From assembly GCA_944364005.1 (NCBI GenBank), contig CALVVW010000005.1, forward strand, positions 1-37,796: a DNA stretch of 37,796 bases. The letters run 5' to 3'. Source of the DNA: an uncultured Bacilli bacterium (GTDB lineage Bacteria > Bacillota_I > Bacilli_A > RF39 > UBA660). Positions within the stretch are counted from its first letter, which is position 1. The number at the start of each line of letters is the position of its first letter. The translations under genes were made by a program, and so were the position numbers. Below are positions 20,506-32,733 of the stretch, piece by piece. The notes beneath the pieces are model-generated. The model worked only from the letters and a program-made list of their open reading frames with translations, was not told the origin of the DNA and made no database searches.

Positions 20506-21111
20506 CTAATTCTTTTTCTGTTTTAAATAACTATCTCGATAAGCTAATAATTTTGTTTTTGCTCTTGGTAAATTGTAAGATGCTGCTAACTCTAAATAGT
20601 ATTTAGACTTATCCAAATCTTGTTTTGTACCTGTTCCTGTATAATAAAAATTTGCTCCTAAATCATAGATTGCCGCAATATGACCCTTCTCTGCCGCATC
20701 ACTAATTAACTCAAAAGCTCGTCTTTTATCTTCCTTAACATCACCGAAGCCAAAATAGTAATAAGCACCTAGACAAAAGATAGAAAAAGTCTGCCTTTCA
20801 GGATATTCTTTTTCTTTTTCTATTAAATCTAGTAATAAAGGATAGGCAGAAACAAATAACTCATAGGCCTTATCCTTATCTTTTAAAACACCATCACCAA
20901 AGTAGTAGCACGCACCAAGGCCATAGATAGCTCTAGGATCACCTTTTTTAGCACCTTCTTGATACCAGTAAACTGCCTTTTCTAAATCCTGGTCTACTCC
21001 ATTTTCACCACTATCATAGCTTCTTCCTAAAAGATAGCAACAAAGACCATCGGTTGCTGCCTTTTTTTCTAACTCTTCTATATTAAAAATTAATGGTACT
21101 ATCTGATTCAT
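20506..21111 (-). CDS. Sel1-repeat (TPR-like) protein
   Basis: 201 aa from ATG at 21111, which overlaps the stop of the upstream gene as ATGA; the upstream frame to 21138 has no ribosome binding site. About four Sel1-like repeats of ~36 residues: CYLLGRSYDSGENG...AVYWYQEGAKKG, AIYGLGACYYFGDG...AYELFVSAY, FCLGAYYYFGFGD...AFELISDAAEKG, AIYDLGANFYYTGTG...YYLELAAS. Such repeats build a superhelix for protein-protein contact. Coupled to an ankyrin-like gene, suggesting a scaffold pair; partners unknown. Confidence 0.85.
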   Translation of the reverse strand: MNQIVPLIFNIEELEKKAATDGLCCYLLGRSYDSGENGVDQDLEKAVYWYQEGAKKGDPRAIYGLGACYYFGDGVLKDKDKAYELFVSAYPLLLDLIEKEKEYPERQTFSIFCLGAYYYFGFGDVKEDKRRAFELISDAAEKGHIAAIYDLGANFYYTGTGTKQDLDKSKYYLELAASYNLPRAKTKLLAYRDSYLKQKKN

Positions 21112-22772
21112 TTTCTTGTTTTTCCTTTCCATAAGCATTGCATTTTTTTAAAAAGTGTTTTTTTCTTAGTAGATTCTGTTATATCTGATACTTCTTGACA
21201 TGGTAGTTCTTCTGGTGTTTCTAGTAGATTGTTTTCTTCTACAAAATGATATTTTGTTAGAAACTCATTTGCTTTTTCATAGCATGCTCTAATTCTAGTA
21301 ACTTCTGATTCATTAGGATGAATAATAGTCATAAACTTAGCTATTCTATATTCTGGTACTTTAAAGCAAACCTTTGACTCTGCCGGTAGTATAAAATTAT
21401 CTAACTCTTCTCTTATTTCTTCTTTTTCTTCAAAATGATTCACAGTCTTTTTTTCTAGATTTTCATTGATTTCTCTAAGATACTTAGTCTTACTAAAAAG
21501 CAAAGCATATGCTAATTGATCTTTGACATTCCAACTATCACTTCTATTATATAATGCCTCTTCTGCTAATTGAGTAATTTCTAAAACTACTTTTCTATCT
21601 ATATTATCAGAATAATATTCTATATATCTATGAATCATTTCTAATGTTACAGTACTTATTTCTATATTAGGATGATTTAATAGATAAGTAAAACTATCTA
21701 CATCTTGATAAAAGGCACAAGCCAGTGCTGTCTCATCACAGACTTCTTCTCTTGGCCAACGTTTTGTTATTATAATCTTTTTTACGATTTCTCTTTTATC
21801 TTTTATATTACTATATTCTAGTCTGTTTATAATATCTAGTGTTAATCGTGCTGAGAATCTTTCGTCTAAAATAATACTATATAAAAGATTTAGATGTCCT
21901 GGAAATATTTCGTCTATGGATTCGTAAATTCTTCCATTTTTAGGATTTATATAATTTTTTAGAGCATAAGTTGCAAGTGTTCTACGATATTCCATTTTAC
22001 TTGGTTCTCTAGTTTGATTTATATCAAAATCTTCTCTTTTCATCATGTCATAAAATAAATCTAATGAGTCTGCATCTAACATATATTTCGGTAATGTATA
22101 ATCTCCCCAGGTATCTAGTGACATCCAATCTGATTTTTTCCTTGTTTTTATTACCTTTTTTAACATTTGAGTTACAAAACTCTTTGTTTTACTTGTATCA
22201 TAGGGAAATGGTACTAATTTTGTTGTTCCCCATTCTGCAAATTTTTTTCGCGTAATATCATGAATCTTTATAAACTCCATCATACCAAAAGAAATATCTT
22301 CCTGTTTTAATAACTCATTAAATATACTAAGTCTAACCTCTAACGATTTTTCTAATTTTTTTATAAACTCTACTTCCTCAATGGTATAAGATTTCGCTAC
22401 TGTCCAGCTATTTTCCTTTTTCGTTTCCACTTCATAGAAAGGTTCTACTAGAGCCTGATAAGGATTTAATCCTGTTCCTACTTGTTTTATAAATTCTTCA
22501 TCCTCTAATAATAGTTTGGCAACTTTAGGGCAAGCGTAGTAGCATGCTGTAGCAAGTAAATTTTCCTCTTCTTCTCTTGACTTAGTTGTCTTATTTTCTC
22601 TTCTATTTAAGTGTGTTCTATCAAAATATTTATTCTCTAATAATTGTAAAGCAATATTTTCATCCCCTGCTACCATAGATAAAAATACTAAATCATGTCC
22701 ATCTTTATCTTTAATATTGATATCTCCTGTAACTATATTTTCTCTAATTTTAGTTAAAACATCCTTTTCCAT
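21108..22772 (-). CDS. Large ankyrin-like helical repeat protein, unknown
   Basis: 554 aa, cytoplasmic. The N-terminal ~110 residues have a degenerate ankyrin pattern (INIKDKDGHDLVFLSMVAGDENIALQLLENK and LLATACYYACPKVAKLLLEDEEF); a further copy appears near ETALACAFYQDVDSFTYLLNHPNI. The rest is charged helical repeat with no family I recognise, ending in a basic tail. ATG at 22772 is preceded by AGAGGTG. Its last bases overlap the Sel1-repeat gene. Probably a scaffold or sensor; no catalytic motif seen. Confidence 0.65.
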   Translation of the reverse strand: MEKDVLTKIRENIVTGDINIKDKDGHDLVFLSMVAGDENIALQLLENKYFDRTHLNRRENKTTKSREEEENLLATACYYACPKVAKLLLEDEEFIKQVGTGLNPYQALVEPFYEVETKKENSWTVAKSYTIEEVEFIKKLEKSLEVRLSIFNELLKQEDISFGMMEFIKIHDITRKKFAEWGTTKLVPFPYDTSKTKSFVTQMLKKVIKTRKKSDWMSLDTWGDYTLPKYMLDADSLDLFYDMMKREDFDINQTREPSKMEYRRTLATYALKNYINPKNGRIYESIDEIFPGHLNLLYSIILDERFSARLTLDIINRLEYSNIKDKREIVKKIIITKRWPREEVCDETALACAFYQDVDSFTYLLNHPNIEISTVTLEMIHRYIEYYSDNIDRKVVLEITQLAEEALYNRSDSWNVKDQLAYALLFSKTKYLREINENLEKKTVNHFEEKEEIREELDNFILPAESKVCFKVPEYRIAKFMTIIHPNESEVTRIRACYEKANEFLTKYHFVEENNLLETPEELPCQEVSDITESTKKKTLFKKMQCLWKGKTRK

Positions 22773-22787
22773 AATTCACCTCTAAAG

Positions 22788-23330
22788 CTAATGTTTTTGA
22801 TAAAGAAAACAGTCCTGCTCATGAGAATTTATCACTCCTACCGCTTGTAAATAAGAATAAATAATTGTTGTACCAACAAATCTCATGCCACGCCTTTCTA
22901 AATCTTTTGATATCCTATCTGATAACTCTGATTTTGTCTTATCATATTCATAAATAATTTGATTATTAGTAAAATTCCATAAATAATTAGAAAAACTTTG
23001 ATATTCCTTCTGAATATCCATATAAACCTTTGCATTCTTAATTACTGCAATAATTTTCCTTCTATTTCTAATAATTCCTGTATTTTGTAGAAGTTCCTCT
23101 ATCTTTTTATCATCATACTTACTAATTTTATCATAATTAAAATTATCAAAAGATATTCGAAAAGCTTCTCTTTTATTTAAAACACATTCCCAAGAAAGTC
23201 CCGCTTGAAACGACTCCAACAATAACATCTCAAATAGTTTATTATCATCATATACAGGAACTGCCCATTCCTCATCATGGTATTTTACATATAAAGGATT
23301 CTTATGATTTACCCAGCTACATCGATTCAT
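22788..23330 (-). CDS. tag: DNA-3-methyladenine glycosylase I
   Basis: 180 aa from ATG at 23330 (MNRCSWV, aligning with E. coli Tag MERCGWV); an ATG at 23342 is also possible. Conserved: NPLYVKYHDEEWAVPVYDD with the zinc-ligand His, FEMLLLESFQAGLSW with the purine-pocket Glu, and a C-terminal INSHEQDCF supplying the last His and Cys ligands that close the zinc snap with Cys4. It excises 3-methyladenine from DNA. The start follows the DUF1653 stop within 2 bp. Confidence 0.93.
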   Translation of the reverse strand: MNRCSWVNHKNPLYVKYHDEEWAVPVYDDNKLFEMLLLESFQAGLSWECVLNKREAFRISFDNFNYDKISKYDDKKIEELLQNTGIIRNRRKIIAVIKNAKVYMDIQKEYQSFSNYLWNFTNNQIIYEYDKTKSELSDRISKDLERRGMRFVGTTIIYSYLQAVGVINSHEQDCFLYQKH

Positions 23331-23331
23331 A

Positions 23332-23592
23332 CTATTTTCCATGAAAATTACCTGCAACACTTTCTACCTCTTGTAGTTCAAAACGATATTTTTGTTTTGC
23401 CTTAGGATATTTCTCATGATTCACTTCTTCTAAAAAATCATTTAATGGTCTTACCCAGCAACTTCCATCTTCATATAATTTTCTATATACTACCATCTCT
23501 TCTAAAGTTTCACTATTTTTTACAATTTCTTCTACCAAATAATAATCACCTTTAAAATGTCTATAGATTCCATGTATTTTAATATCTCTCAT
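23332..23592 (-). CDS. DUF1653 domain protein
   Basis: 86 aa, a small SH3-like beta protein: IHGIYRHFKGDYYLVEEIVKNSET, VVYRKLYEDGSCWVRPLNDF, and the EVNHEKYPKAKQKYRF end are the family signature. Function unknown; often beside DNA repair or nucleotide-related genes, and here directly ahead of tag. Confidence 0.9.
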   Translation of the reverse strand: MRDIKIHGIYRHFKGDYYLVEEIVKNSETLEEMVVYRKLYEDGSCWVRPLNDFLEEVNHEKYPKAKQKYRFELQEVESVAGNFHGK

Positions 23593-23625
23593 ATTCTACC
23601 TCTTTTCTTCTAATCTTAGTATATC

Positions 23626-24788
<1,163 letters not shown>

Positions 24789-24801
24789 TTAAGACTTCTT
24801 C

Positions 24802-24830
24802 ATTATATCGTAAACAAAAGAAAAAGACAA
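24802..24830 (-). promoter_or_regulatory. tgt promoter
   Basis: Minus strand TTGTCT (24825-24830), 17-bp spacer, TATAAT (24802-24807). The -35 box is shared with the second arm of the preceding terminator. Confidence 0.65.
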
Positions 24831-24847
24831 GTAAGAATACTGTGTCT
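24816..24847 (-). terminator. Probable terminator of the Gre-like operon
   Basis: Minus-strand arms AGACACAG and CTTGTCT pair over seven bases with one bulged C, then TTTTTCTTTT. It is 4 bp after the stop of the last Gre-operon gene. Confidence 0.6.
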
Positions 24848-24851
24848 CCAT

Positions 24852-25475
24852 TTACTTTCTTCCTTTATTTATTTGATATTGATCTCTGAATGCTTTCACT
24901 TTTCTTTTAGCCTGTTCTAAAGATTTCTCAGTCGCATCAGAAAATAACGGGATATAATCCGGTCTGTTTTCATCAATTAATGATATAACATTTTGATTAC
25001 TAGCTTTCAGGCTTGCATCTACTTCGCCTAACACATTCTTCACCTTATAAAGATAATCAAAGGTAGCATTACGTTGTTGTAATAAAGTAAGATGATTTCC
25101 AGAAGTTATATTATTAGAAGTAATTTTGACACCCTTTAATATTTCTGTACTAGTCATAACCATATCCTTGGACAAATTCCCTAATACTCTAGACTTTCTC
25201 ACAAAAGTTGCTGTCTTTTTTCCACCAAATCTACCTACTAGACTAGCAAATTTAAAAGTCTTGATAGTCCCTTTTATTTCAGGACCTTTACTTATGTCTT
25301 TCAGTTCTACTGCTAAGTTTTTTATATACTTAAAAAATATAGATTTCTCTTCTTCTGTCAAAGGTTCCATCATTTCAACTTTAGCAAGGATAACTGGCAA
25401 CTCGACCATAGCTTTCGTAGTTTCAATCATAATTTTTCTTAGTTCTTCACTATCTATCTCGTTTTGAAGACTCAT
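24852..25475 (-). CDS. Unknown helical protein in the Gre-like operon
   Basis: 207 aa, third gene of the operon. No family recognised and no membrane helix or signal. The N-terminal half is acidic helix (NEIDSEELRKIMIETTKAMV, MEPLTEEEKSIFFKYIKN), followed by a basic glycine-containing stretch (FASLVGRFGGKKTATFVRKS) and a C-terminal amphipathic helix ending in KGRK. The basic middle could contact nucleic acid; that is a guess. AAGGTG precedes ATG. It may be the functional partner of the two Gre-like proteins. Confidence 0.7.
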   Translation of the reverse strand: MSLQNEIDSEELRKIMIETTKAMVELPVILAKVEMMEPLTEEEKSIFFKYIKNLAVELKDISKGPEIKGTIKTFKFASLVGRFGGKKTATFVRKSRVLGNLSKDMVMTSTEILKGVKITSNNITSGNHLTLLQQRNATFDYLYKVKNVLGEVDASLKASNQNVISLIDENRPDYIPLFSDATEKSLEQAKRKVKAFRDQYQINKGRK

Positions 25476-25523
25476 TGTTACACCTTCTTCCTGTAAATAA
25501 AATACTGGCTTTATCTATTGTGA

Positions 25524-26039
25524 TTACTTCATATTTCTCATTTTTAAATGTGTCTTTCCTATTCCTGGTCTATCATATTCCATACTAGTAATTAACACCT
25601 CTATTCTTTCACCATCTCTGGTATCATAATGAAACCTAGAACCTAATTTTTTATGATAAACCGCTTTACCAAAATCACTATTATAAGTTAAATAAAGAGA
25701 AGATGGCTCGTTTGATACTTTTTTCTCAATTAATATAACATCTAAAAACTCCATATCTTCCTTACTATACTTTAAAAAAGCCTTAAAATGAGAACCTATT
25801 TCTACCCGTTCACTATTAGGATTTGAAATGATAGTACTATCTTTTAATAAATCAGATAACTTTTGAATTCTATCTGCATTTTCCTGTATTTTCCAAATAG
25901 CATCATAGTCAGAGTCCCCTGGTCGTGTATAGCAAGTCGCTTTATCTCTTTCTTTTGCCTCATTTAATAATTTAATCTCTTCTGCTAATTTATGTATTTC
26001 TTGTTGCATAATTGTTACTTGATCAGTAAGTAATTTCAT
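25524..26039 (-). CDS. Gre-factor-like protein, single module
   Basis: 171 aa, the length of GreA (about 158). Residues 1-72 are a two-helix coiled coil with an acidic turn RPGDSDYDAIW (39-49) at the place of the GreA tip GDLKENAEY, whose acids (Asp41, Glu44 in E. coli) support RNA cleavage in the polymerase secondary channel. Residues 78-154 follow the GreA/GreB C-terminal pattern: VEIGSHFKAFL, LYLTYNSDFGKAV, then ERIEVLITSME. It is too divergent to be the housekeeping GreA. The leader and first codons resemble those of the upstream 410-aa gene, implying duplication. Could also bind another target. Confidence 0.6.
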   Translation of the reverse strand: MKLLTDQVTIMQQEIHKLAEEIKLLNEAKERDKATCYTRPGDSDYDAIWKIQENADRIQKLSDLLKDSTIISNPNSERVEIGSHFKAFLKYSKEDMEFLDVILIEKKVSNEPSSLYLTYNSDFGKAVYHKKLGSRFHYDTRDGERIEVLITSMEYDRPGIGKTHLKMRNMK

Positions 26040-26051
26040 AATATCGCCTCT

Positions 26052-27284
26052 TTATTTCTTTAATTTTTGATAAAGCAATGGATTAGAAATCCTACTAGCA
26101 TCCTTACTGTTATCGATATCAAAAGCAAATACAGTATAAACAGAACCTTCCTGAGAAACTAAAACACTATTTTCTTCCGTTAATCCTACAATTTGTCTAC
26201 CAATAGGACTATCAACTTCTAAATAATTAGTATCTAATTCCAAAGAAACTGCTCTTTGAATAAGTTCTACTCTTTTACTTTCGCCTGTCTCATTACATAT
26301 TAAACTGACATGACTACCGATGTCTATTTTTTCTCCATTAGTTTCAGGATTTACTCTTGGTACAGACGTTAATAAATAATCAATCTCCTCTAATCTAGTA
26401 GTTAATGTATTTAATTTCGCATTCTTTTCTTCATAAGAGAAAACATTTTCTTGATTAATATTTTGTACTCTACCAGATTTTCTTCTTTTCAATCCATTTT
26501 CCATCAAATAAAAAGTAAAGCAATTTTTTAGGTTTCTATTATCTATTCTTTTAAATAACTGGCTATAAATACTGATCTCTCTATCTTTATTTATTGCATA
26601 TTCTGCTTTATCTACGACAGTATATTCTCTTGGGATGTCATCAGCAATACAAATTGTAACTTTCGTACCTGGAACTAATTCGTCCATTTCAGATTTTTCT
26701 TTCACCATTTCTTGAGTAACCAAATCTTTTTCTAATTCCAATAATTCTACTTGACTATCCGTTAAATATGAAACTTCTGACAACTCTCGATGTGGAAGAT
26801 ACTTTACATATTGATCAATATCATCAACAATTCCTGTAACAGTAGCAGTCATCTGTTGTTTTGTCTCTGGTGAAAGATAGGTTACTTCATCTCCTGTAAC
26901 AGCACCACGTAATGCTTTACCAATAGCAGTATTCAAACTAATACAGTTAATATCTGTCATCCCAATTTTAGTATCTACTAAAGTATATAGTTCTGGTTGT
27001 TCTTCTCCTAGAAATTGTAAAAAGAACTTCGTTCCTAACTCTATCTTAGTAGTATCAATTTCCCTAACTCGGTCACCTTGCCTTAAGGCATCTGCAAAAG
27101 AAGTTTTCATCTTTTCAGTCAATAAATATTGAGATTCACTAAATAGATTACTCCCGTCATTTAACATTGCTTCAGAGTCTCCATGCTTTAATCCGGAAAA
27201 ATAATTCTTAAAACTAGATAAGGCTTCTTTCTCTATTTCCAATGCGTTCAACAACGCTTGAACTTGTTCTGGTATTAACTTCAT
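26052..27284 (-). CDS. Gre-factor-like protein with three C-terminal-type modules
   Basis: 410 aa. The N-terminus (1-78) is a helical hairpin with acidic turn LKHGDSEAML (32-41), matching the GreA tip position. Three stretches then fit the Gre C-terminal domain: 80-153 (IELGTKFFLQF, then ISLNTAIGKALRG and GDEVTYLSPE; clearest), 203-277 (LVPGTKVTICI, weak), and 319-391 (IDIGSHVSLIC, then LEVDSPIGRQIVG; clear). Short helical pairs separate them (about 176-201 and 283-305). I know of no described Gre protein with this layout. First gene of the operon, own promoter, 12 bp before the single-module paralogue. Confidence 0.6.
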   Translation of the reverse strand: MKLIPEQVQALLNALEIEKEALSSFKNYFSGLKHGDSEAMLNDGSNLFSESQYLLTEKMKTSFADALRQGDRVREIDTTKIELGTKFFLQFLGEEQPELYTLVDTKIGMTDINCISLNTAIGKALRGAVTGDEVTYLSPETKQQMTATVTGIVDDIDQYVKYLPHRELSEVSYLTDSQVELLELEKDLVTQEMVKEKSEMDELVPGTKVTICIADDIPREYTVVDKAEYAINKDREISIYSQLFKRIDNRNLKNCFTFYLMENGLKRRKSGRVQNINQENVFSYEEKNAKLNTLTTRLEEIDYLLTSVPRVNPETNGEKIDIGSHVSLICNETGESKRVELIQRAVSLELDTNYLEVDSPIGRQIVGLTEENSVLVSQEGSVYTVFAFDIDNSKDASRISNPLLYQKLKK

Positions 27285-27309
27285 ATAATCGCCCTTTCAT
27301 GTATTGCCT

Positions 27310-27339
27310 ATTATAACACAACACACCATGGCTTTTCAA
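27310..27339 (-). promoter_or_regulatory. Promoter of the Gre-like operon
   Basis: Minus strand TTGAAA (27334-27339), 18-bp spacer, TATAAT (27310-27315) with an extended TGT in front. It lies 26 bp upstream of the start codon. Confidence 0.75.
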
Positions 27340-27380
27340 TCAATTTTCTTTATAAATTTCATCTAAAAATACTATTTAAT

Positions 27381-27407
27381 AAAAAAAGCATCACTTTATA
27401 GCGACGC
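27381..27407 (-). terminator. Terminator overlapping the stop of the 256-aa anchored protein
   Basis: Minus-strand arms GCGTCGC / GTGATGC (two G-U pairs), 6-base loop, then seven T. The loop-distal arm and tail contain the end of the coding frame. Confidence 0.8.
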
Positions 27408-28161
27408 TTACTAATCCATAATTTCCATCTTTATCCCGAATAAAAGTAAAAGTAGTAATAGGCAAGTTATTTTTTACTGACTGATACTCTTCCTCTGTAA
27501 TTTCATAATAATCACCAAAACCTCCTAATACTGGATTTTCTCCATTCCTACTATCGATAGCACTTTTATAATATCCCGTGACAGGTCCACAAGTTCCATA
27601 ACAATAGTCACCATACAATATATTTACTCTAACTGTATAAATTTTATCTTTCTTCTGACCATCAAGATAATAGATTTCTGCAGGATAGATACCCGCTCCA
27701 CCATGTCCATGAATATCTTGAAAAAAGTATTCTCTTTTTGCACTATCATACCGGTATAATACACCATCTCCCAAAAAGCATTGAATATCTTCATGAATAT
27801 AAGGATGATTATCTCCAAAATATTTTTCTAATACTTTTTCTAAGTCACTTTCCATAAAATCAGAGAATTTATTTTCTAGTTGCATTGATGCAAAATATAA
27901 AACTTCTTGATTATCTAAAGTACTTTTTTCAGTAATTGGATAACTATCTGCAAAATAAGGAGTATAAACTTTTATCTGTTCTAATAAGGTGTTTTTTTCT
28001 TCTTTTGTTACCTCTTTTATTTCTAATTCCTTTTTTTCTTTTCTTGATTCTTCTTTATTTATTACTTGATCATAGATGATGTATCCTGAGATACCAAATA
28101 AAGTAATTATTAAAATAATAATTACAATTACTCCCTTGTTACTCTTTTCCTTTTTTATCAT
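27391..28161 (-). CDS. Membrane-anchored extracytoplasmic protein, unknown
   Basis: 256 aa: signal anchor (10-32), charged lysine/glutamate linker, then an exported domain with LEKVLEKYFGDNHPY, CFLGDGVLYRYDSAKREYFF, IHGHGGAG, and a CYGTCGP pair of cysteines; it ends with FTFIRDKDGNYGLVSV. The order of these blocks matches the 267-aa protein at 33427 (AYERLFGSGTYH, MSYDSVNSRYV, GCGVAI, YTFQMGNDGFYYYVGV), so the two are likely diverged paralogues. No known family recognised. Confidence 0.75.
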   Translation of the reverse strand: MIKKEKSNKGVIVIIILIITLFGISGYIIYDQVINKEESRKEKKELEIKEVTKEEKNTLLEQIKVYTPYFADSYPITEKSTLDNQEVLYFASMQLENKFSDFMESDLEKVLEKYFGDNHPYIHEDIQCFLGDGVLYRYDSAKREYFFQDIHGHGGAGIYPAEIYYLDGQKKDKIYTVRVNILYGDYCYGTCGPVTGYYKSAIDSRNGENPVLGGFGDYYEITEEEYQSVKNNLPITTFTFIRDKDGNYGLVSVAIK

Positions 28162-28181
28162 TTTTATACTCCTATTTTATA

Positions 28182-28928
28182 TTATTCATTATAAAATTTT
28201 CTTGCTAGATCTACTACTTTATCAAGTTCTCCTTCTTTTTTGAAGCGATGGTCAGCTCCTTTAATAATTTCCATTTTAGTATTATATTTTTTCATAAATG
28301 CAATGGAATCCGTTATTGGAGCTGTATCATCTTGATCACCATGAATAATTAATATCTTATTTTTATTTGTTTGATAAACATCAAATATTTGATTATCTAT
28401 TAATTCTTTATAAAATGAATAATTCACCTTTAATTCTCTTTCATATCCAACGATAGTGTAACCTTTCTTTTCAAATTCGTCTAGACTATCGTTTAAAATG
28501 GCATTGACAAATATTTTATCCATTGCGATTGCAGGGCATCTAAGAACTATGCGATTATATAGACAATTTTTCTTAGAAATTAAAAGCAATAGCAAGTATG
28601 CTCCAAAACTAGTAGCAAAATAATCAATACTTGCATCTGGATATTTTTCTTTATAATAATTCTCTACAGTCAAAATATCATGAAAGCAATTATCTAATGT
28701 TAAATAGTCTCCATCTACCTCACTTTTTCCGTGACCTGGTAAATCTAGAGCAACAGTCATTGTATTATCATCTAACATCTTCTCTGCTAATGATGCGATT
28801 GCACTACTTTCGTTGTCCCCTGCGAATCCATGAATAGCAAATATCACTCTTTCTACTTTACTTGGCATCCATACTTTACATTCAATATTATATTTTTCTC
28901 CCTTGATTTTCTGATACATTGTTTTCAT
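28182..28928 (-). CDS. Alpha/beta hydrolase
   Basis: 248 aa, serine hydrolase fold: VIFAIHGFAGDNESS (oxyanion strand), VALDLPGHGKSE, nucleophile elbow YFATSFGAYL (Ser in A-T-S-F-G, the first Gly replaced by Ala), acid in IIHGDQDDTAPI, and base in KGADHRF. It resembles monoacylglycerol-lipase or YqkD-like esterases; substrate unknown. ATG at 28928 and 28919 are both possible. The start overlaps the tail of the frameshifted transglutaminase-like gene by 41 bp. Confidence 0.85.
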   Translation of the reverse strand: MKTMYQKIKGEKYNIECKVWMPSKVERVIFAIHGFAGDNESSAIASLAEKMLDDNTMTVALDLPGHGKSEVDGDYLTLDNCFHDILTVENYYKEKYPDASIDYFATSFGAYLLLLLISKKNCLYNRIVLRCPAIAMDKIFVNAILNDSLDEFEKKGYTIVGYERELKVNYSFYKELIDNQIFDVYQTNKNKILIIHGDQDDTAPITDSIAFMKKYNTKMEIIKGADHRFKKEGELDKVVDLARKFYNE

Positions 28929-29603
28929 TTCCTTTCTTTATTATCTCTACTAATTGTATTGCACCTTCTATTCCATTACAGGAAATTGTTGTAGGCCTTT
29001 TTAAAAAATCTTCGGCTCTTTCACCTACTCCATTTTCTCCTAATTTATTATTAGAAAATTGTTCATCTGGGATAATATAAATCATACTATCCATATACTT
29101 ATTAAAATCATATCCTTTTTTTCACAGTTTGCTTGTCGTTCTGGATCTAATATTTTATAAGTACCATCTTTATCCTCAGCAACAACTACATAATGAAGTA
29201 ACTGTTTATTAGCTCCAGGTAATTTTGCTAATAACGTGTGAGTTTTTATATCATACATAGCTAACAACACCCTAACTGCTTCCGCATATCCTGCACACAT
29301 TGCTTCTTTTAAAGCAAGTGCTGCATACCCGGTTCTATAAATTTCTTCATATTTTGGAAAAAAATCTATTTCACCCATAAATTCTTCAAAATATGAATGT
29401 CTAATATTTACTGTACTTTTAATATAATCATTTACTAATTTAATAGGATTTGTATTTACATATTCTGTTGCTTCAAAACTTTTATATAGAATGTCTAGGC
29501 GTTCATATAAAACTTCTATCATTTCTTTACTATAAAATTCACTGCCATGACAGGACTCACATATTATTGAATTTATTTTAATTTGTTTCTCCAACGATAA
29601 CAT
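28888..29603 (-). pseudogene. Transglutaminase-like protein interrupted by a -1 shift
   Basis: The first frame (29082-29603) carries the whole catalytic core: MCAGYAEAVRVLL (Cys103), LLHYVVVAED (His137), YKILDPERQ (Asp153). It then runs into A AAA AAG (29115-29121) and ends nine codons later, while the -1 frame continues GYDFNKYMDSMIYIIP down to 28888. Joined at the heptamer the protein is 238 aa and reads smoothly. A missing A in the A7 run gives the same result, so this may be an assembly error, a real mutation, or programmed frameshifting of the dnaX type. The core is complete even without the tail. ATG 29603 has AGGGGGG upstream. Confidence 0.7.
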
Positions 29604-30354
29604 GATTTCCCCCCTCTTTTAATTGTTTTACCATAATATTATAAGATTGGTAGATATTAAAATATTTTTTTAATGAAATATTTTGATATCTAAAATTTCT
29701 TATTAAAAATGGTTCTTTATAAAAGCTTTTTAAAGATGTGATATAATCAATATTTGTGTTTTCTAAAAATAAGAAGTTATCAATCCATACTTTAACATTT
29801 TCTAATTCTTCATATTGGTTTTGTTTTTCTATATAGCAAGCCTTTATATTTTTATCTAAATAAATATAAATATTAGATTCCTTAGAGTACGTTTCTAGTA
29901 GTTTAGAATTCTTTATTTTTAAAATTTCTAGTAGATTTTGTTTTTCTTCTATAGATGCTTTTTTCCATTTACAAATAGACTCTTTATTAGCATGTGAAAG
30001 ATAGTCTTCATTAATATATAAATCGTCAAATCCGTTTTTTAAGAAGAATTGCTGACAATGTATTGGAGTTCCATAGAAAAAACTGTTTTTATTACCAAGA
30101 ATCATTGTATGATATTCTTTTTCTATTTCTTTTTCTGCTTGTCTTAATAAGTATGTTCCTATCATTAAATTTTGAAACTCTTTTTTCACACATATTAATA
30201 ATAAATGGTTTTGTTTCATTGCTACAAAACCTAATACTTCATTATTTTTTTCATATTTGATGATTTTTGCTTTTTTTAATTGTTCTGTAAAGAAATTATA
30301 ACTGTATCTTTCTTTTAAAAATAGTTCCTTATAAATTTGATACAATGTATTCAT
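29578..30354 (-). CDS. GNAT acetyltransferase-like protein
   Basis: 258 aa. The N-terminal ~130 residues fit a GNAT fold: FTEQLKKAKIIKYEKNNEVLGFVAMKQ, then LLLICVKKEFQNLMIGTYLLRQAEKEI (acetyl-CoA loop, with Q-N-L-M-I-G in place of Q-x-x-G-x-G/A), and FFLKNGFDD. The C-terminal half may be a second, degenerate GNAT module (KACYIEKQNQYEEL). Substrate unknown. AAAGGAG precedes ATG; its end overlaps the transglutaminase-like gene by 26 bp. Confidence 0.65.
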   Translation of the reverse strand: MNTLYQIYKELFLKERYSYNFFTEQLKKAKIIKYEKNNEVLGFVAMKQNHLLLICVKKEFQNLMIGTYLLRQAEKEIEKEYHTMILGNKNSFFYGTPIHCQQFFLKNGFDDLYINEDYLSHANKESICKWKKASIEEKQNLLEILKIKNSKLLETYSKESNIYIYLDKNIKACYIEKQNQYEELENVKVWIDNFLFLENTNIDYITSLKSFYKEPFLIRNFRYQNISLKKYFNIYQSYNIMVKQLKEGGNHVIVGETN

Positions 30355-30394
30355 GTCATTCTCCTTTGACTTTAGATGATTATTTTTTCTGTGG

Positions 30395-30835
30395 TTATTT
30401 ACCTTTTCCTTGTTGTAAACTCATCTCATAAATAGCATTTTGTAATTCTATAAATCTAACTTGTGCTTCTTGTTGAAATAACTTTAGTTGTTTTCCCATC
30501 TCTTCTAATTCTTTCTTTTTTAAAAAATGGCGATATTTATTCTTAATTTCCTGTCGAAATTTTTCTATTCTATTTAACGCTTCTCTTAGACTTTCTCCTG
30601 TATCATCATCACTAGTTAATAATTCCATTAGAATAGCTATTAATTTTTGATATTCCTTAGATACTTTCTTTTCTACCAAAGGATGCACCAACTTACTATT
30701 AATTACAATAATATTTTTAATATTTGTATTTTGTATCACAAATATCTTTTTACTACTTCCCATGGGAAAACCATAGAATTGCTCACTAAACTCTATCTTT
30801 TTCATTTTCTTTTTTTCTTTCGTGACTTGATACAT
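30395..30835 (-). CDS. Unknown coiled-coil protein next to trmD
   Basis: 146 aa, no family recognised. A small beta-rich N-terminal part (KKIFVIQNTNIKNIIVINSKLV) is followed by long charged helices (KVSKEYQKLIAILMELL, IEKFRQEIKNKYRHFLKKKELEEMGKQ). No membrane segment. AGGTGGTATT before ATG, 8 bp after trmD, so probably in the same operon. Confidence 0.65.
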   Translation of the reverse strand: MYQVTKEKKKMKKIEFSEQFYGFPMGSSKKIFVIQNTNIKNIIVINSKLVHPLVEKKVSKEYQKLIAILMELLTSDDDTGESLREALNRIEKFRQEIKNKYRHFLKKKELEEMGKQLKLFQQEAQVRFIELQNAIYEMSLQQGKGK

Positions 30836-30843
30836 AATACCAC

Positions 30844-31509
30844 CTACTTTTCTAATAAATCAGGTCTTCTATCTCTAGTTCTCTCTAAACTCTGCGCTCT
30901 ACGATACTCTTCTATCTTTTTATGATCTCCTGAAGTGAGTACCTCAGGTACTTCCATTCCTCGAAACACTCTAGGTTTTGTATACGTTGGATAGTCCAAT
31001 AAATGATGATTGAACGAATCCATTTGATGAGACTCTTCTTCAATCACACCAGGTAAGAGTCTTACAATAGAATCCGTAATCACCATACTAGCTAATTCTC
31101 CCCCGGTTAATACATAGTCACCAATACTAATTTCTAAATCACAAATAGACCTAATTCTCTCATCGAATCCCTCATAATGACCACAAATAAATATCAAATG
31201 TTTCTCTGAAGATAAATCATAGGCCATCTGTTGCTTATAAGGAATACCATCTGGTGTTAATAAAATGACTTTACTATCTTCTGTTTTAATACTTTCAACA
31301 CAATCAAAAATAGGTTGACAAGTAAGTACCATTCCACATCCACCACCATAAGGAGTATCATCTACTTTATGATGAGGATCCGTAGAATAATCTCTAAAAT
31401 TATGAAGATAAATCTCTACTTTGCCTTCTTCTTGTGCTCGTTTGATAATAGACTGAGAAAAAACACCTTCAAACATCTCTGGAAAAAGTGTTAGTATATC
31501 TATTTTCAT
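30844..31509 (-). CDS. trmD: tRNA (guanine-N1)-methyltransferase
   Basis: 221 aa from the second ATG ([13 protein letters not shown]), which has better spacing to AGGTGG than ATG 31512. SPOUT-class trefoil knot: [31 protein letters not shown], and [13 protein letters not shown] with the AdoMet-binding loops, then the C-terminal [15 protein letters not shown]. It makes m1G37 in tRNAs, preventing +1 frameshifting; essential in many bacteria. Preceded by rimM as usual, but rpsP and rplS, which normally flank this pair, are absent. Confidence 0.97.
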
Positions 31510-31517
31510 CATACCAC

Positions 31518-31997
31518 CTACATCTCTAACATTTGATCAATTAAAATTTCTTTTTTCTTAGTATCAATTTTTACTAATGGCGACTTCATTGGAACCAATA
31601 TTTCTTTATCTAATTGTACTCTCATAATTTTATTCGTAGGACTTGCTAGAAATATTTCCTTTATTATTCCCTTTTTTCCTGATGTTGTCAAGACTTGAAA
31701 TGTCATTAAATCCTCATCTAGTACTTCATTATCATCTAATAACAACTCTTCTTTATCAATATATACCTTCTTTTTTAACAAAAACAAAACTTCATTAATA
31801 TCATGATAATCATCTAACGTTACCATATCAAACTGCTTATGAACACGATAAGACTTAATCTCATATGACTTATCATCAATAAGTACTTGATTACCTACCC
31901 TAAAAGCTTTCTCTTTATATGGAAAAGAACTTTTAATTTTTATTTCACCTTTAATTCCATGAGTAGATACAATTCTACCTAAATATATCTTTTTCAT
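31518..31997 (-). CDS. rimM: Ribosome maturation factor RimM
   Basis: 159 aa from ATG at 31997 ([21 protein letters not shown]); the longer frame to 32045 lies in the trmH end. The N-terminal RimM barrel ([50 protein letters not shown]) is followed by a PRC-barrel ([21 protein letters not shown]). It binds S19 and helps 30S head assembly. It starts 1 bp after the trmH stop. Confidence 0.93.
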
Positions 31998-31998
31998 A

Positions 31999-32733
31999 TT
32001 ACTTATCCATCTCATATAGTAGAATACTTGCAGCAACAGCAACATTCAAACTTTCTACTTTCTCATTCATTTGTATATATAATCTTTTATCACATTTATC
32101 TAAAGTAGTAGAACGTATACCATTTCCTTCATTACCAACAATTAATGCAAACTTCTTTCTATCCTTTTCAGCTAAATCACATACATTCATTCCATAGTCA
32201 ACACTACTTCCATAAATAGGAATTTCTTTATCATGCAACAAGTCTAATACTTTATCAATCTTTCTACTAATTACATTCAAGTGAAATAACATTCCTTGTG
32301 TTGCTCTTACTACTTTAGAATTATAAATATCAACAGAGTTTTCAGATAGAATAACCGTATCAATATCAAAGGCTTTTGCACTTCTAATAATCGTTCCCAC
32401 ATTTCCAGGATCTTGTACTTCATCTAATATTAAAAATTTTGATCCTACTAAATCCCTATCAGGTAATTTTCTACATAAAGCCATAACGCTAGCAGGTGTA
32501 TCAACCTCAGATATCTTATAAATAATTTCTCTTGTTACATAAACATAAGGACAAGGTAGTGGCAAAGCTTGATTTTCTTCCATAATCAATTCTTCAATAA
32601 TTCCGCTTTTAAATGCTTCTAGCACTAGATGCATACCCTCTACAATAAACTCACCATATTCATCACGATATTTTTTCTTCTTCAATTTTGTATATTTTTT
32701 TACTTTTTCATTATCTAAACTTGTAATTACCAT
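31999..32733 (-). CDS. TrmH/SpoU family RNA 2'-O-methyltransferase
   Basis: 244 aa. N-terminal substrate-binding domain, then a SPOUT domain with motif 1 EVQDPGNVGTIIRSAKAF, motif 2 FALIVGNEGNGI and motif 3 QMNEKVESLNVAVAASILLYEM. It methylates a ribose in rRNA or tRNA; the site is not deducible. In B. subtilis a gene of this family (ysgA) lies next to sspI, and sspI is 1.6 kb away here, suggesting it may be the YsgA counterpart (recalled synteny, not checked). Confidence 0.92.
   Translation of the reverse strand: MVITSLDNEKVKKYTKLKKKKYRDEYGEFIVEGMHLVLEAFKSGIIEELIMEENQALPLPCPYVYVTREIIYKISEVDTPASVMALCRKLPDRDLVGSKFLILDEVQDPGNVGTIIRSAKAFDIDTVILSENSVDIYNSKVVRATQGMLFHLNVISRKIDKVLDLLHDKEIPIYGSSVDYGMNVCDLAEKDRKKFALIVGNEGNGIRSTTLDKCDKRLYIQMNEKVESLNVAVAASILLYEMDK

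Follow-up and report, generated by a model that had tools for sequence, protein, structure and literature searches.

Our computational analysis identifies a lineage-specific family of Gre-like genes that lies upstream of tgt, is extra to the canonical greA, and differs in sequence, gene number and unit number between close species. All its members met in these searches come from a single family of uncultured Bacilli. In the window (the whole 37,796-nucleotide stretch of DNA that was analyzed), it is represented by a 410-aa protein composed of two complete Gre units in tandem, the second with an additional Gre-C domain nested in it, and by a 171-aa single-unit paralogue (Table 1). This Gre variant is real and is unusual in both architecture and tempo, hinting at a possible undescribed kind of polymerase-docking protein. 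We tentatively favor a role as non-cleaving factors of the secondary-channel type, which would dock on RNA polymerase (RNAP) in the manner of GreA and act as its competitors or modulators.

The three ORFs of 410, 171 and 207 aa lie where a preliminary description of the sequence had placed them, all on the minus strand with tgt next, and the SD/start regions of the first two are alike, as had been noted (GGGCGATTATATGAAG and AGGCGATATTATGAAA). Judging by their spacing and the consensus sites around them, the three genes may be transcribed as a single unit. The promoter-like site was the top score of its scan (49 sites found against 49.6 expected by chance) and falls within a stretch that is 88% identical to locus L054. 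One terminator-like hairpin was found against 2.2 expected by chance, and neither kind of site was commoner in the scanned region than in shuffles. Rfam gave no match to an RNA element across 21000-32000, and a search for integration-marking repeats in 24700-27500 returned short repeats only, none of them copied at both edges of the interval. Beyond the upstream edge of the slot, window positions 27391-28161 encode a 256-aa protein whose N-terminal stretch looks hydrophobic by eye and which has no Pfam family above cut-off. Each of the ten genus loci that cover that side has a relative of it ahead of the Gre slot, with identities of 59.5-69.4% for the three that were compared.

Table 1. Features of the Gre-like locus, in window coordinates.
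Feature	Position	Strand	Basis
tgt, 3' neighbor of the Gre-like family	23646..24776	-	ORF, locus comparison
Interval without alignable DNA in G001 (about 2.5 kb)	24835..27380	.	DNA alignment
207-aa protein, variable accessory gene of the slot; no family assigned	24852..25475	-	Pfam, NCBIfam, locus comparison
171-aa single-unit Gre-like paralogue	25524..26039	-	Pfam, NCBIfam, family profile, pairwise comparison
Tandem Gre-like protein of 410 aa: two Gre units, with a Gre-C nested in the second	26052..27284	-	ORF, Pfam, AF2, fold comparison
Coiled coil of unit 1 (residues 5-69), with a poorly modelled tip at 33-43	27078..27272	-	
Gre-C1, residues 79-153	26826..27050	-	Pfam PF01272, AF2
First helix (A) of the unit 2 coiled-coil hairpin, residues 176-201	26682..26759	-	AF2, fold comparison
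Gre-C2, residues 208-277, between helix A and helix B	26454..26663	-	AF2, fold comparison
Second helix (B) of the unit 2 coiled-coil hairpin, residues 284-307	26364..26435	-	AF2, fold comparison
Gre-C3, residues 319-391	26112..26330	-	AF2, fold comparison, conservation
Conserved patch within Gre-C3, residues 339-367	26184-26270	-	Conservation analysis
Promoter-like site, TTGAAA-18-TATAAT, TG before -10, 11/12	27310..27339	-	Just upstream of the 410-aa gene
Terminator-like hairpin where the 256-aa gene ends, at the slot's upstream edge	27386..27409	-	

Gre-C (PF01272) was the sole Pfam family above cut-off on the 410-aa protein (E 4.6e-15, 55.8 bits against a cut-off of 26.9, best stretch residues 79-145). 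The protein combines a coiled coil at the N terminus with a PF01272 C-terminal domain, as GreA and GreB do. In the AF2 model (mean pLDDT 85.5), residues 86-152, 208-277 and 325-391 form beta/helix domains of the Gre-C type, which bears out the earlier recognition of three Gre C-terminal-like stretches. The accompanying picture of one coil followed by three C-terminal modules gives way to a different one, since it had missed helices A and B, which together with Gre-C3 make up a second complete Gre unit. According to the model and the fold comparison, two units lie in tandem, and Gre-C2 splits the coiled-coil hairpin of unit 2, where it occupies the position of a Gre factor's catalytic tip. Both units match Gre folds, with RNAP-bound Gfh1 as the top structural match of each and HelD also among the matches. 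The unit 1 coil of this predicted model is of GreA-like length and is arranged as in GreA and RNAP-bound Gfh1, with pLDDT under 50 at its tip. Assignment to an unrelated family was considered and set aside; sequence matches of the 410-aa protein among solved structures were weak, mostly to HSP90, with a best E of 0.012.

A profile of 22 relatives matched both the 410-aa (E 2.5e-48) and the 171-aa protein (E 1.2e-22), with E-values calculated for a search space of the ORFs of 37 fetched loci only, and direct comparison of the two proteins gave a weak resemblance (E 7e-5). This common profile and weak mutual similarity uphold the view that both are Gre relatives. PF01272 remained below cut-off on the 171-aa protein (E 0.002, 18.5 bits). 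The NCBIfam greA model (TIGR01462) matched it at E 1e-8 but far below its cut-off, scoring 35.4 bits there and 70.2 bits on the 410-aa protein, neither of which reaches the curated cut-off of 139. By sequence, the 171-aa protein gave weak Gfh1-type matches among solved structures (E 0.08-0.16). No family above cut-off was assigned to the 207-aa protein by Pfam or NCBIfam. Its proposed part as a constant partner did not survive the locus comparison: relatives occupy the slot at just two other genus loci (L065 and L066), and the slot of L053 holds in its place a 98-aa ORF to which the 207-aa query gave no match. The constant neighbor of the Gre-like genes is tgt, not the 207-aa gene.

Among 35 testable loci, 34 have tgt 3' of the Gre-like genes, and it is on the same strand in all 34 loci that contain it. 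The count derives from 37 loci chosen as better matches, not at random, of which L070 ends inside its Gre gene, L127 is a canonical greA, and L113 is the exception; in the latter genome (G230), the Gre-like member lies about 197 kb from tgt on the same contig. The spacing between the Gre-like gene and tgt is within 163 bp at 29 of the 34 loci, including one overlap of 10 bp, and 680-774 bp at the other five, among them the window, with one or more other ORFs between. Upstream, the slot is flanked by queA in some genera and by trmD and a 146-aa gene in others. There are also empty sites within the carriers' genera, where queA or the 146-aa gene directly abuts tgt (L129-L134, L139, L145). In all, 28 tgt loci, each spanning 1.5 kb or less per side, had no adjoining Gre gene; since they come from 30 hand-picked genomes with no match or a weak single-unit match (two of the 30 without a tgt hit), they show empty sites and not their frequency. 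On a tgt tree (FastTree, 62 rows), the presence label requires at least 9 changes against 20.6 in shuffles, none of 500 being as low, a count that cannot separate gain from loss.

Further features were observed around the slot. ORFs of 387 aa (L128, 4399-5562) and 403 aa (L126, 3706-4917) lie in the queA-Gre interval, the former without a Pfam family above cut-off, and ORFs of similar size occur at L123 and L124. At L055 (9261-9956), the gap that separates the Gre gene from tgt encodes a 231-aa protein with hydrophobic stretches by eye and no Pfam family. On the 3' side of tgt, L064 (1408-2832), L065, L067 (5969-7417) and L068 have a gene of some 475 aa, which looks Fic-like by eye and is absent from the window. 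The tgt genes of L106 and L139 group apart from their own genera on a quick tree, which may be due to transfer or mis-binning.

The family takes several forms. Protein searches with the 410-aa query returned 14 relatives, comprising 12 three-module proteins, the two-unit P0014 and the partial match P0008, and two-unit queries returned 33 proteins, including P0014 again and the 186-aa P0046. The first 106 residues of P0008 equal the window protein and are followed by another domain (PF08812); it was omitted as a probable chimera or disruption. Unit number varies by locus, with one-unit, two-unit, three-module and about 560-aa forms; the member at L066 is shortened to 115 aa, and the paralogues at L067 (143 aa) and L055 (142 aa) have far shorter coils by eye. 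One genome carries four consecutive Gre-matching ORFs (534, 341, 167 and 307 aa) in its queA-tgt interval (L109, 5150-9296), the last two of which may be pieces of one broken gene.

At the order level, 253 of 385 genomes matched the profile at E 1e-8, the matches listed being mostly single ORFs of 155-180 aa like canonical greA, and 24 of 385 matched at E 1e-16 or better, a threshold that excludes some genuine but weaker members, among them G020 (best E 9.2e-15). In a class-level set of 395 genomes, not all of which need lie outside this bacterial family, two passed E 1e-16, both of them from the same family. A strong PF01272 match, taken as canonical greA, was present in 59 of 60 relatives. 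These include all 16 genus genomes compared (a set that excludes the window's own assembly), which answers the earlier question of a normal greA elsewhere in the affirmative for these congeners. Canonical GreA is 90-100% identical across the 12 genus loci compared. A phage origin found no support in 50,697 phage records, where the 410-aa protein had no match at E 0.01. Among the titles and abstract openings listed from the open-licence PMC literature, there was neither a multi-unit Gre protein nor a Gre-tgt linkage.

Divergence in the slot is abrupt. The window and G001 are 92.6% identical in DNA at 22794-24834 and 85.4% at 27381-28018, on either side of the unalignable interval. G002 and G015 are 95% identical around tgt, yet their slot has no alignable DNA. 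Two slot pieces can be aligned with L054 (70.6% and 88%), and most of the slot with L053. Protein identity between the window and L054 is 41.4% for the 410-aa protein and 27.5% for the 171-aa protein (whose 154-aa counterpart may not be an orthologue), against 97.6% for tgt and 91.4% for trmD. The corresponding values for the 410-aa protein, the 171-aa protein and tgt are 42.2%, 32.1% and 95.7% with L055 and 89.2%, 81.3% and 96.8% with the closer L053. Between the window and L054, dN is 0.527 for the 410-aa gene and 0.012 for tgt, and dS is 1.05 and 0.74, a 1.4-fold difference at values near saturation. For the L053 pair, dN/dS is 0.33 (410 aa), 0.29 (171 aa) and 0.05 (tgt). Within the 410-aa gene, it is 0.19 in unit 1, 0.37 in the linker and helix A, 0.57 in Gre-C2, which has the highest dN of the modules, and 0.43 in helix B and Gre-C3, the last value from 8 changes. 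Every dN/dS value computed is below 1.

One alternative to our favored reading is that the Gre-C modules bind a partner other than RNAP, such as Tgt or some other protein encoded in the tRNA-modification operon, and that the linkage to tgt reflects this. The constant position of tgt in queA and trmD contexts alike (34 of 34 loci) fits this idea, and Gre-C3 departs from GreA at the S121 position. However, tgt remains 96-98% identical at L054 and L055 while the Gre-like proteins are 27-42% identical, and thus shows no matching change; moreover, the 28 selected loci have tgt without an adjoining Gre gene, and the two genes are unlinked in G230. Since carriers cluster on the tgt tree, the linkage is perhaps an inherited position only, and overall we regard such a partner as rather unlikely.

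Alternatively, the slot might be a conflict locus, whose products shield the RNAP secondary channel from phage factors, as decoys or guards, and are diversified or swapped in an arms race. The sharp interval edges against G001 and between G002 and G015, the dN of 0.53 against 0.012 for tgt with dS just 1.4-fold higher and near saturation, the dN/dS of Gre-C2 and the sister species with empty sites would all agree with this, and PMC8195603 proposes GreA/B-C as an RNAP-engaging part of bacterial conflict proteins. We nevertheless consider it improbable: an effector domain was not found, the phage records held no match, and PADLOC returned nothing for the 410-aa protein and one weak partial match to the 171-aa coil (BrxF, E 7e-4 over 29 residues). 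In addition, every dN/dS lies below 1, and relaxed selection would look alike. A bolder variant, to which we also assign a low probability, would have multi-unit RNAP secondary-channel plugs arise from a hypervariable locus, with one Gre unit docked on the polymerase and the nested, rapidly changing Gre-C2 at the second hairpin tip recognizing a variable partner, perhaps a phage transcription factor, as a polymerase-mounted sensor or shield.

Conservation was computed over 10 sequences, after near-duplicates (P0001, P0009, P0011) and the two-unit P0014 were dropped from 14 rows; P0046 was dropped from a second set. At the unit 1 tip, 0 of 13 positions are invariant. The GDLxEN-type tip with its acidic pair (D41/E44) occurs in 0 of 48 family ORFs; the single instance among 49 Gre-matching ORFs is L127, whose GDLSEN tip marks it as canonical greA. 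The acidic turn of the preliminary description is present in the window tip (GDSEA) but is poorly conserved and poorly modelled. Most three-module sequences have a GD or GE pair there, so that one acid may be kept and residual cleavage is possible. These acids, and the GreA-like length and arrangement of the unit 1 coil, could mean that Gre activity is kept, in which case unit 1 would cleave transcripts despite its relaxed tip and unit 2 would be a regulatory appendage. We find this distinctly improbable in view of the missing GDLxEN tip, the absence of any invariant tip position, the far shorter coils of the L067 and L055 paralogues and the canonical greA already in these genomes. It is very unlikely that the family consists of duplicates that are under loose constraint, have no important role and are on their way to being lost, as patchy presence on the tgt tree and shortened members such as that of L066 might suggest, given the dN/dS of 0.33 and 0.29 in the closest pair and a patch that is conserved over wide divergence.

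That patch in Gre-C3 has a mean pairwise identity of 66%, with 14 of 29 positions invariant, against 47% for the whole of Gre-C3 and a comparable 49% for Gre-C1. In E. coli GreA, the substitutions S121P and P5S lower RNAP binding, while S124L keeps binding and loses antipause activity (PMC7527559). By eye, and in E. coli GreA numbering, P5 is retained across the family and position 121 of Gre-C1 is S or T; Gre-C3 has an invariant E (E356) at the S121 position and an invariant SP at 124-125. Since S124L spares binding, the conserved serine of this SP is no argument for binding, and the comparison of binding residues is mixed. Unit 1 looks fit to dock on RNAP, and Gre-C3 retains a conserved face that may meet RNAP or some other partner.

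Our leading reading, non-cleaving factors of the secondary-channel type with GreA-like docking, has in our view a somewhat less than even chance of being correct. Fold, nesting, locus and rate were computed; docking on RNAP and competition with GreA are inferred. The protein would attach, GreA-like, to the beta' rim of the secondary channel via Gre-C1 and the base of coil 1, perhaps assisted by Gre-C3. Unit 1 could then insert its coil, lacking a GDLxEN tip, and block or slow the polymerase or displace GreA in a Gfh1-like manner, without stimulating cleavage. Because a globular domain caps its hairpin, unit 2 could not enter the channel; it would stay outside, where it would either make a further contact or bind a partner that changes fast. 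Paralogues with short coils might act as Rnk-like rim binders. Several points weigh against this proposal: the S121 position of Gre-C3 is E356 and not serine, Gre-C1 is conserved overall as much as Gre-C3, the GD/GE pair could allow residual cleavage, and Gre-C is FKBP-like, with room for other partners. Nor does the proposal explain the tie to tgt, and the G230 member lies far from it. A new polymerase-binding or regulatory system, as originally suggested, remains plausible as a hypothesis.

One clade has duplicated, fused and split Gre units beside an unchanged GreA, without the catalytic tip, and the family thereby constitutes a natural experiment on the possible fates of a secondary-channel factor. 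Protein divergence at near-ordinary synonymous rates suggests a selective pressure, perhaps on polymerase access, in gut Bacilli.

Gre factors are normally small, single-unit proteins. PMC4598747 agrees with this. Like GreA and GreB, both units of the 410-aa protein have the fold of a coiled coil with an FKBP-like Gre-C; unlike them, the protein has two tandem units with a Gre-C nested in the second hairpin, and the family is devoid of the GDLxEN tip and additional to canonical greA. Gfh1 of Thermus and Rv3788 are Gre-type RNAP inhibitors, the latter competing with GreA, and they are single-unit proteins active at acid pH (PMC4598747). A Gfh1-type inhibitor acts on RNAP with a pH-dependent flip of the C-terminal domain; the 410-aa model, one static prediction, resembles the RNAP-bound form, and the comparison is one of form. 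The same applies to Rnk, a single-unit protein of other taxa with a Gre-C and a coil too short for the active center (PMC4598747), as the 142-143-aa paralogues appear to have. Conflict proteins of the EAD10/TPR-GreA/B-C-PIN type likewise put Gre-C to use in proteins that evolve rapidly and are not elongation factors (PMC8195603). In contrast to these, the 410 residues are accounted for by Gre-type parts, and TPR, PIN or effector domains were not found, although the published PIN is itself divergent (PMC8195603). Finally, HelD also carries a Gre-like arm within a larger RNAP-binding protein, but HelD is an NTPase, whereas the 410-aa protein has no such domain and is built from Gre units throughout.
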